Shown: one piece after another, positions 1-27,706 of the stretch
Layout of the letters: each line of letters begins with the position of its first letter
How positions within the stretch are numbered: position 1 is the first letter of the stretch
Assembly (NCBI GenBank): GCA_903960135.1
Contig: CAJBZP010000092.1
Span: 1 to 37,767, forward strand
Length of the DNA: 37,767 nt
Origin: an uncultured Actinomycetes bacterium
GTDB lineage: Bacteria > Actinomycetota > Actinomycetes > S36-B12
Direction: 5' to 3'
Made by a program: the position numbers and the translations under genes
Notes under the pieces: generated by a model
The model's database searches: none
Told to the model about the DNA's origin: nothing
The model's input: only the letters and a program-made list of their open reading frames with translations

Positions 1-21
1 AGTCCCGCGAGACATAAACAA

Positions 22-53
22 CTGGCCCCAAACCAACAGCGGTCAGGGGCCAG
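22..53 (-). terminator. Terminator-like hairpin downstream of small ORF A
   Basis: Inverted repeat CTGGCCCC (22-29) / GGGGCCAG (46-53); minus-strand read-out continues TTGTTTAT. Confidence 0.6.
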
Positions 54-61
54 AGCAGGGT

Positions 62-85
62 TTAAACACCCCACCTAGTGGTAGG
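62..85 (-). repeat. Conserved 24-nt 3' UTR block, copy A
   Basis: Minus strand CCTACCACTAGGTGGGGTGTTTAA matches 21/24 to 25534-25557 (CCTACCGCTAGATGAGGTGTTTAA); both copies begin 8 nt after the small-ORF stop codon. Confidence 0.75.
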
Positions 86-93
86 CAAGGGTG

Positions 94-273
94 CTACTCC
101 TCATTACCCTCAAAGCAAAACAGGACCCCGAAGCACAAATGGGGGTTCGCGGTTTGGGGTGCCACCGATACCCCGCCGAGACCGGCTGCACCGGGCCGCA
201 CCCAACCAACACCGAGAACCAACCGCTCACTAGCCACCGAACTAACCGGGGCACTAACTTCCACACTAGGCAT
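94..273 (-). CDS. Small protein A (59 aa), paralogous to 25352-25525
   Basis: Manual translation MPSVEVSAPVSSVASERLVLGVGWVRPGAAGLGGVSVAPQTANPHLCFGVLFCFEGNEE*; SD-like GAAAGGA upstream; paralog with mostly third-position differences. Below the length cutoff of the ORF track. Confidence 0.7.
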   Translation of the reverse strand: MPSVEVSAPVSSVASERLVLGVGWVRPGAAGLGGVSVAPQTANPHLCFGVLFCFEGNEE

Positions 274-465
274 TTAAATGTCCTTTCCGAAGGGGTAGCG
301 GCCCGCAGGTGAGCCCCAACCAAAGGGGAACACCGAAACCACCAAAAAGCAATAGCGAAACGCCAAGTGATTCCAAGGGAAGGTCCACTTGTTGGTCCAC
401 TTGAAGAGCGGTTGGCCCGGTTTCACACTGGTGGTATGCACGTCTGGGAAGCCACCAGTTAAGTG

Positions 466-25254: not shown

Positions 25255-25351
25255 TAAATCTTGAACCACAACGATTCCTTTCTTGCGCTCACCCCGGGTC
25301 CGTGTTCCTATGGCCTAGCACAAATCGGCAGCCCCAAATGAGGAGAGTGCT

Positions 25352-25525
25352 ATGCCAAATTCGAATATTGCGGTCCCTGTTAGTTCGGTTGCGTGTGATC
25401 GGTTGGTTCTTGGTGTTGGTTGGGTGCGGCCCGCAGCGGGCAGTATCGGCGGCACCCTAAACCCCTTGACGGCCACTGGTTGGGTGAATGCGTGCTACGG
25501 GTGCTTTGAGGGTAGTGAAGAGTAA
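25352..25525 (+). CDS. Small protein B (57 aa), paralogous to 94-273
   Basis: Manual translation MPNSNIAVPVSSVACDRLVLGVGWVRPAAGSIGGTLNPLTATGWVNACYGCFEGSEE*; SD GAGGAGAG upstream; absent from the ORF track because short. Confidence 0.75.
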   Translation: MPNSNIAVPVSSVACDRLVLGVGWVRPAAGSIGGTLNPLTATGWVNACYGCFEGSEE

Positions 25526-25579: not shown

Positions 25580-25611
25580 CCGACCCCAGACCACCCTTGG
25601 CTTGGGGTCGG
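25580..25611 (+). terminator. Terminator-like hairpin downstream of small ORF B
   Basis: CCGACCCCA (25580-25588) / TGGGGTCGG (25603-25611), followed by TTGTCG. Confidence 0.55.
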
Positions 25612-25714: not shown

Positions 25715-27706
25715 ATGGCTGCTGCGTCGAAAGACCCGAGCGCACTTTTGGACGTACCACCGCTGTTGACCGGACGTTTGGCCATCACTGATGTCAACCC
25801 GTCTGTGCTCAGCGGTCGCCGCCCGGCGGCGGCCGTGGTTGACGAGGCCGTACGGGTTCGCGCTACCTGCTTTCGCGAGGGCCCTGGTGCACTCAAGATC
25901 GCAGCGGTACTCCACCGACCGGACGGCACCTGTCACTCACGAGTTGACTTGCAGCCAAGTGGCCCAAACGCTTGGGCCGGAATCGTCCGGCCTACCGACG
26001 TAGGTCAATGGACTTTCTCCATCGAGGCGTGGAGTGATCCTTGGCAGACTTGGTTGCACCGGGCAGAAGTCAAGATTCCAGCTGGCATCGATGCCGAACT
26101 TGAGCTCAGCGAGGGTGCTTTGCTTTTGGAAGGAGCGATTACTCCTAAGCATCCAGCACGGGCCGACCTTCAGTCGGCACTGACCACGATGCGAACCGGC
26201 TCGCTGCCGCCGCCAGTACGACTCGCCGCCGCGATGGATCCGCGAGTGGCTTTGGCGCTTTCGAATTCCCCCCTTCGTGAACACCTGACCACAAGCGGCC
26301 CTTGGCCCCTTGCTGTACAACGGCGAAGGGCTCTGGTTGGTGCGTGGTACGAATTTTTCCCGCGCAGCGAAGGCGCGACCCTGGACCCACCGAAATCTGG
26401 CACATTCATCACTGCTGCGGATCGGCTGCCCGCCATTGCGGAAATGGGATTCGACGTTATCTACCTACCACCGGTGCACCCCATCGGTTTAAGCAACCGC
26501 AAGGGACAAAATGGCGATCTGGTCGCAAGCGCGAACGACCCTGGATCCCCGTGGGCCGTTGGCTCGCCAGCAGGGGGGCATGATGCGGTACACCCCGACC
26601 TTGGCACCTTGAAAGATTTTGACGCTTTCGTCTCGTCAACTAATGCCCTTGGCATGGAAATCGCCCTCGATCTAGCATTGCAGGCATCACCTGATCACCC
26701 TTGGGTCACAGAGCACCCCGAGTGGTTCACGGCCCGAGCCGATGGGTCCATCGCATACGCGGAGAATCCACCGAAGAAGTACCAAGATATCTACCCGTTG
26801 AATTTCGATAATGACCCGGAAGGTATCTACGCGGAGATCGAGCGGGTCGTACGCTTTTGGGTTTCCCACGGTGTACACATCTTTCGCGTCGATAATCCAC
26901 ACACCAAGCCCATCTGGCTCTGGGATCGACTCATTACCGCAATCAACGACGATCACCCGGATGTCATCTTCTTAGCCGAAGCATTCACTAATCAAGCGAT
27001 GATGCAGGCACTCGCTGAAGTCGGGTTCCAACAAAGTTACACCTATTTCACTTGGCGCACGGGTAAGCAGGAGCTCGAGGAGTACGGCAATGAACTTGCC
27101 GGCCCGGCTGCGGCTTATATGCGCCCGAACTTCTTCACCAATACCCCAGACATTCTGCATGCGTACTTACAGCACGGCGGTCCGGGCGCATTCGCAATCC
27201 GCGCGGTGCTTGCGGCGACTCTTGCGCCCAGTTACGGCATCTACAGCGGCTTTGAAATTTACGAGCATGTGGCACTTCGCCCGGGCGTCGAGGAGTACCT
27301 AGACGCCGAGAAATTTCAGTATCGACCGCGCGACTGGGCGGCGGCCAAAAGGCAGGGCCGGAGCCTGGCTCCCCTTTTGACACTTATCAATGGCGTGCGG
27401 CGTGAGCACAGGGCGCTTCAGGATCTGCGGTCGCTCCACTTCCACCACTGCGATAACCCAAATATCATCGCGTTTTCAAAGCAGGATGGCGATGACACCA
27501 TCTTGGTGGTTTGCACACTTGACCCGCACCATGTGCAAGAGGGCACTGTCTGGTGGGATCTAATGGCTATCGGGGTAGATCCCCAATCCCTCTTCATCGC
27601 GCACGACCTGCTGTCCGACACAAGTTGGACTTGGGGCCAAACCTCTTACGTACGACTTACTCCTTGGGAGCAAGTCGCGCACATAGTCCACGTGCAGCAA
27701 GAATGA
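25715..27706 (+). CDS. glgE: Alpha-1,4-glucan:maltose-1-phosphate maltosyltransferase
   Basis: [67 protein letters not shown]. Confidence 0.95.

Follow-up and report, generated by a model that had tools for sequence, protein, structure and literature searches.

Cyanobactin pathways combine PatA- and PatG-type proteases with a LynD/TruD-type cyclodehydratase and a ThcOx-type oxidase (PMC4663559). An RSI motif in the precursor leader directs heterocyclisation (PMC4663559), the cleavage site lies after G(L/V)E(A/P)S for PatA-like enzymes and before AYDG for PatG-like ones (PMC10885120), and PatG needs Pro or a thiazoline directly before the tag (PMC5708355). Reported clusters come from cyanobacteria and hold up to 10 precursor genes (PMC4663559, PMC4603692). 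In the prochlorosins and synechococsins, ProcM and SyncM each serve many dispersed substrates, 29 and 79, respectively (PMC10783134). A third group, the NHLP/Nif11 TOMM clusters, lacks PatA/PatG proteases (PMC4603692).

We analysed a window of 37,767 nucleotides on one contig from an uncultured Actinomycetes bacterium, in which two short open reading frames had been singled out. From the analysis below it is very probable that both encode RiPP precursors for a cyanobactin-type pathway whose enzymes act in trans from a single locus elsewhere. All of the enzyme types named above for cyanobactins recur in this genome, and as in patellamide, trunkamide and cyanothecamide the peptides consist of a leader, a hypervariable core ending in Cys and a C-terminal recognition tag. 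In contrast to cyanobactins, the host is an actinobacterium, the leader sequence is unrelated, every short gene carries a single core, and about 50 unlinked precursor genes are present instead of the reported maximum of 10. With prochlorosins and synechococsins the system shares one promiscuous enzyme set, numerous precursor genes that are dispersed and in tandem, conserved leaders, hypervariable cores and a small-genome planktonic host. It differs from them in phylum, in having a conserved follower, in lacking a Nif11 leader, and in its predicted chemistry, with YcaO azolines and S8 proteases rather than LanM thioethers. NHLP/Nif11 TOMM clusters have a YcaO cyclodehydratase similar to that of cyanobactins, but their nitrile-hydratase-like leader is not homologous to the precursors described here.

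The precursor genes

A sequence-only reading had described the two frames as paralogous genes of an apparently undescribed family. Retranslation returned exactly the two peptides that it reported, and over codons 10–27 the genes differ, as stated there, at five nucleotides, four of them in third positions (one of these four changes Asp to Glu). The Shine-Dalgarno-like sites upstream of both frames are likewise present. The features of the window are as follows.

25340..25345, + strand: Shine-Dalgarno-like GAGGAG of gene 1, read from the sequence
25352..25525, + strand: precursor gene 1, 57 aa, from its translation and homologues in the same assembly
25352..25468, + strand: leader of gene 1, residues 1–39, MP...DRLVLGVGWVRPAAGSIGGTLNPL, of a constant 39-aa length in the family
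25469..25504, + strand: hypervariable core of gene 1, TATGWVNACYGC, with a predicted N-terminal boundary and a conserved C-terminal Cys
25505..25522, + strand: follower or C-terminal recognition tag of gene 1, FEGSEE, by family consensus
25580..25611, + strand: terminator-like hairpin 3' of gene 1, present also after the final copy in many arrays
25715..27706, + strand: glgE, downstream of gene 1
94..273, − strand: precursor gene 2, 59 aa, perhaps recombined or chimerically assembled from two tandem copies on contig C147
157..273, − strand: leader of gene 2, residues 1–39
115..156, − strand: hypervariable core of gene 2, QTANPHLCFGVLFC, with a predicted N-terminal boundary
97..114, − strand: follower of gene 2, FEGNEE
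281..288, − strand: Shine-Dalgarno-like GGAAAGGA of gene 2, conserved upstream of copies
22..53, − strand: terminator-like hairpin 3' of gene 2
1..459, − strand: window part of an inserted unit adjoining RNase HII; in seven congeners this site is empty

The gene 1 peptide matches that of gene 2 at E = 4e-13, far above chance likeness. Paralogy thus stands, but not the number two: within its own assembly, which spans 2.32 Mb in 152 contigs at 95.5% completeness, the gene 1 peptide finds 49 copies at E <= 2e-5, distributed on 26 contigs and often in tandem, many with gaps of 49–78 bp. A contig end lies within 600 bp for 28 of the 49, which suggests that the assembly breaks at these repeats, and the count is therefore probably an underestimate. 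A profile search gave 4–49 copies per genome in the genus, where, as throughout this study, all genomes compared are MAGs or drafts. Those relatives that carry names are MAGs of freshwater actinobacteria; one bears the label acSTL and another acI.

The family does look undescribed, since Pfam and NCBIfam hold no match for it. Stops in the frame, or kinship with a known family or non-coding RNA, had been named as observations that would speak against a new protein family; none of the listed copies has an internal stop, and Rfam, like the two protein databases, returned no match, in its case anywhere in the window. A PDB profile search with the precursor gave noise only, and comparison of the leader with known cyanobactin E-peptides yielded no database match.

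The anatomy of the family was derived from 80 distinct complete precursor genes. With the leader boundary set at WVRP plus 12 residues, the leader measures 39 aa in all 80, followed by a core of 7–16 aa and a follower that reads F[EA]G-x-EE or close to it (consensus FEG[NSTD]EE). The residue directly before this tag is Cys in 79 copies and Pro in one, which at the sequence level is what the PatG rule predicts (PMC5708355). The leader also contains the stretch DRLALGVGWVRP and, at its centre, DRLALGVGWVRPG, which we propose as docking segment. Of the two-part leader/core plan put forward earlier, the conserved leader and the variable core are borne out; the split is incomplete because the C-terminal follower is conserved too.

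Conservation at the codon level, suggested earlier as a check, is evident from pairwise Nei-Gojobori comparisons. pN lies well below pS in the leader (0.185/0.404; 0.19/0.42 within the genome), particularly over residues 10–28 (0.118/0.419), and in the follower (0.085/0.337); both are under purifying selection. Cores of equal length gave 0.689/0.741, which is saturated. Leaders share a mean pairwise identity of 69% and cores about 7%, with 75 distinct cores among the 80. Relative to shuffled core DNA, the cores show an excess of Tyr (z 10.6), Gly (8.5), Asn (8.3), Cys (5.6) and Thr (5.6) and a deficit of Arg (z −8.4), Glu and Asp. They contain no stops, against 3.5% expected. This absence and the biased composition show that the cores are not neutral noise.

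These data bear on the idea that the copies are a selfish, MITE-like repeat or a structured non-coding RNA with an incidental reading frame. Such an element would fit the high copy number, the empty insertion site with its 13-bp direct repeat (see below), and the conserved flanks, namely an upstream element resembling TGTTC[CT]CATTGG common to array starts and terminator-like hairpins common to array ends. Nevertheless, we consider it very improbable, given that core length changes by whole codons only and the frame is kept, that pN is so far below pS on either side of the core, that core stops are missing, and that Rfam found nothing in the window.

The enzyme locus

The earlier remark that no maturation enzyme is adjacent to the two genes was accurate: the enzymes are encoded at a separate locus. 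Searches for YcaO and S8-protease genes led to one place in the assembly, contig C39, with rpsG and fusA as neighbours.

C39: PatA-like protease, 631 aa, TIGR03895 at 723 bits (cut-off 421)
C39: PatG-like protease, 677 aa, TIGR03895 at 453 bits (cut-off 421), PatG_C at 2e-35, PatG_D
C39, opposite strand: fused E1-like/YcaO cyclodehydratase, 761 aa, TIGR03604 and TIGR03882 over cut-off
C39: ThcOx/SagB oxidase, 762 aa, ThcOx at 1e-18 and PDB CyaGox at 2e-46
C39, L101:8862-10091: sulfotransferase with C-terminal PqqD domain, 409 aa, Sulfotransfer_1 and PqqD
C39: MFS exporter
C39, L101:3346-3729: 127-aa protein
C39: 264-aa protein, before the sulfotransferase

The cyclodehydratase matches LynD at 5e-148 over nearly its whole length and TruD at 2e-142, and the PatA-like protease matches the PatA structures in the PDB at about 1e-82 (4h6w, E = 3e-82). 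The 127-aa protein ends in RGLTHR and lies ahead of the PatG-like gene in almost all loci (orthologues in L102, L103, L107–L109 and L167–L171); it has no Pfam or NCBIfam family match. The 264-aa protein belongs to no family either and by eye resembles a degenerate HPr-kinase-type protein. No prenyltransferase was found in the locus, a further difference from cyanobactins, as is the PqqD-fused sulfotransferase. The C39 genes scanned include no LanM-type protein, and Pfam and NCBIfam detected no Nif11 leader.

YcaO clusters also occur in the relatives G020, G042 and G046 (L104, L105 and L106). They were set aside as being of the NHLP type, without precursors of the window's kind. In L104 and L106 the precursors are Cys-rich and nitrile-hydratase-like and end in CTGAVSHETW or similar, with luciferase-like monooxygenases next to them.

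The PatG-like protease matches PatG (4h6x) at 1e-58 and keeps the hallmark motifs IIHCAFC and E-x-WC-x-PA. At seven loci, both proteases have the catalytic Asp, His and Ser. The spacing of Asp and His in the PatG-like enzyme is about 35 residues versus 70 in PatG. This gap, judging from the alignment, is presumably the position of the PatG capping helices, and the insertion is absent in all seven loci checked. In PatG, the insertion with the capping helices has been described as needed for ligase activity (PMC6010433). Macrocyclisation is therefore doubtful here, and the products may be linear or macrocyclic. Whether the same RiPP family gives linear products, with the PatG-like enzyme acting as a protease only and the peptides bearing azol(in)es and possibly sulfate but not being closed head to tail, we regard as a matter of even chances: linear cyanobactins are known (PMC4663559), and the missing insertion points the same way, but Cys or Pro before the tag is a requirement of the macrocyclase PatG (PMC5708355) and the PatG motifs have been retained.

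A PqqD-fused sulfotransferase in a cyanobactin-type locus suggests leader-guided sulfation of a RiPP, an idea based on this domain fusion and on the Tyr-rich cores. Sulfation of the core is a weak reading, because the cores of G012 and G021 also contain Tyr and their clusters show no sulfotransferase.

Linkage and co-occurrence of precursors and enzymes

In the window's genus, no precursor gene lies in the enzyme locus. The sequence-only reading had proposed looking for homologues near modification enzymes, and in other genera these exist. In G012 (genus g4), eight related precursors lie on either side of the YcaO gene within the enzyme cluster; they read MP-x-T-x-I-x-TPE...R..LGI..R..., followed by a core ending in Cys and an [SA]A-x-EDE-like tail. 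Five precursors lie in or beside the cluster both in G423, with CFEG-like tails, and in G021, with CFADD-like tails and in one case Pro before the tag. In G446 and G463 one precursor each adjoins PatA. Contamination of the MAGs does not account for the association in G012, G423 and G021, whose enzymes are mostly 40–75% identical to those of this genus; it could underlie the linkage in G446 and G463, where identities are mostly 70–89%.

Within the class, PatG_C occurs only sporadically, in 13 of 396 genomes. Across 79 genomes of the taxonomic family, with precursors called at E <= 1e-4 and enzymes by strong PatA/PatG matches, 14 have both, three only precursors, two only enzymes and 60 neither (Fisher p = 6e-11, calculated as though the genomes were independent, which they are not). 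The three precursor-only genomes are 79%, 57% and 70% complete, the last with a single weak match. G029 and G429 have PatA homologues without the window's precursor family. Their PatA/PatG-type pair is a different one (G029:C3:1405412-1409527 and G429:C99, genera g10 and g11) and probably represents a different cyanobactin-like system.

Homologous precursors inside enzyme clusters, together with this co-occurrence, indicate that the window genes are RiPP precursors modified in trans, and the lack of neighbouring enzymes is explained by their action from one locus in this genus. The earlier RiPP-precursor hypothesis thereby gains strong support. Its counterpart, a small regulatory or stress protein, had been called equally possible. 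On that account the enzyme cluster would be unrelated, and the dispersed sites beside housekeeping genes such as glgE, with no maturation gene nearby, would fit. Such a function hardly suits peptides whose middle is hypervariable up to a fixed Cys or Pro and a fixed tag, tandem copies that differ in just that middle, and precursors that occur within clusters of other genera and together with PatA, PatG and YcaO; we give it very little credence. A related question is whether the peptides are RiPP precursors with another main modifier, the PatA/PatG/YcaO locus being only partly responsible. Precursors and enzymes are unlinked in this genus, and G001 (C40, C36, C31, C32) keeps the full enzyme locus with almost no precursors: only remnants are left, some with stops, through either decay or loss of copies at contig breaks. 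In view of the direct linkage in three divergent genera, a different main modifier is nonetheless very unlikely.

Genomic sites and evolution

Seven congeners have a readable region upstream of glgE. At this site, precursors with other cores are present in G004, G006, G007, G008 and G009, a remnant in G002, and in G003 a pseudogene with an in-frame stop that has lost its core. The RNase HII site of gene 2 is the empty one mentioned above. The insertion is split between the window (1-459) and contig C147 (L060:2926-3904), with a 13-bp direct repeat, TAACTAGC[AG]CTTA, at both junctions. C147 carries two tandem copies; apart from one or two SNPs, gene 2 has its N-terminal half in common with one of them and its C-terminal half with the other. 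This hybrid could be genuine, a strain variant produced by recombination, or a chimera that arose at the repeat during assembly. Furthermore, identical or near-identical cores, for example YATSGGIGRPTYAC, TTMGGCWCCIC and SNSPGMLCGC, occur in different species under leaders of 67–85% identity. Taken together, the differences at the glgE site, the hybrid copy and the shared cores make duplication, loss and leader-core recombination all appear active. The 80-aa ORF beside the C147 copies is absent from other loci, and thus no mobile-element gene came to light. Viral contigs hold no relative, which leaves carriage by phage unsupported.

Discussion

The family, its architecture and selection pattern, the enzymes, their linkage and their co-occurrence are read from the genomes themselves. 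For the pathway that they outline, we infer every chemical step, the order of steps and the cleavage sites. About 50 precursor genes, single or in short tandem arrays, are spread through the genome of this freshwater actinobacterium of the acSTL lineage. The leader centre would dock on the fused cyclodehydratase of the single locus, which would turn core Cys, and perhaps Ser/Thr, into azolines, the invariant terminal Cys becoming a thiazoline. Further steps may be azole formation by the ThcOx-like oxidase and sulfation of the core by the PqqD-fused sulfotransferase. The PatA-like protease would cleave after the ..NPS end of the leader and the PatG-like protease before FEG-x-EE, with the MFS pump exporting the product. 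The G(L/V)E(A/P)S and AYDG sites of cyanobactins are missing, but the plan of ..NPS, core Cys and FEG-x-EE is analogous to theirs at each place. One enzyme set would thus read many hypervariable cores, a library in which duplication and recombination generate the diversity. That the whole picture holds, a recombining library of some 50 cyanobactin-like precursors served by one trans enzyme set, with sulfated azol(in)e products that are linear or macrocyclised by a PatG lacking the cap, we judge slightly better than even.

A literature search limited to open-access papers retrieved no description of such a system. It unites cyanobactin-type enzymes, an apparently new precursor family and prochlorosin-like dispersal. 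Precursors that fall outside Pfam and NCBIfam and lie apart from their enzymes are likely to be missed by cluster-based genome mining. For peptide engineering, the system offers a cyclodehydratase apparently tolerant of very diverse cores, a cap-less PatG homologue, a PqqD-fused sulfotransferase and the leaders.

Prochlorosins raised the question of why a streamlined planktonic genome should make tens of peptide products with one promiscuous enzyme. Such libraries in compact plankton genomes were previously known mainly from cyanobacteria, and the family described here suggests a second solution of this kind, in a freshwater actinobacterial lineage and with cyanobactin-type enzymes. If this is true, it would be an independent counterpart of the prochlorosin system in another phylum and with another chemistry, and comparing the two could reveal what selects for such libraries.
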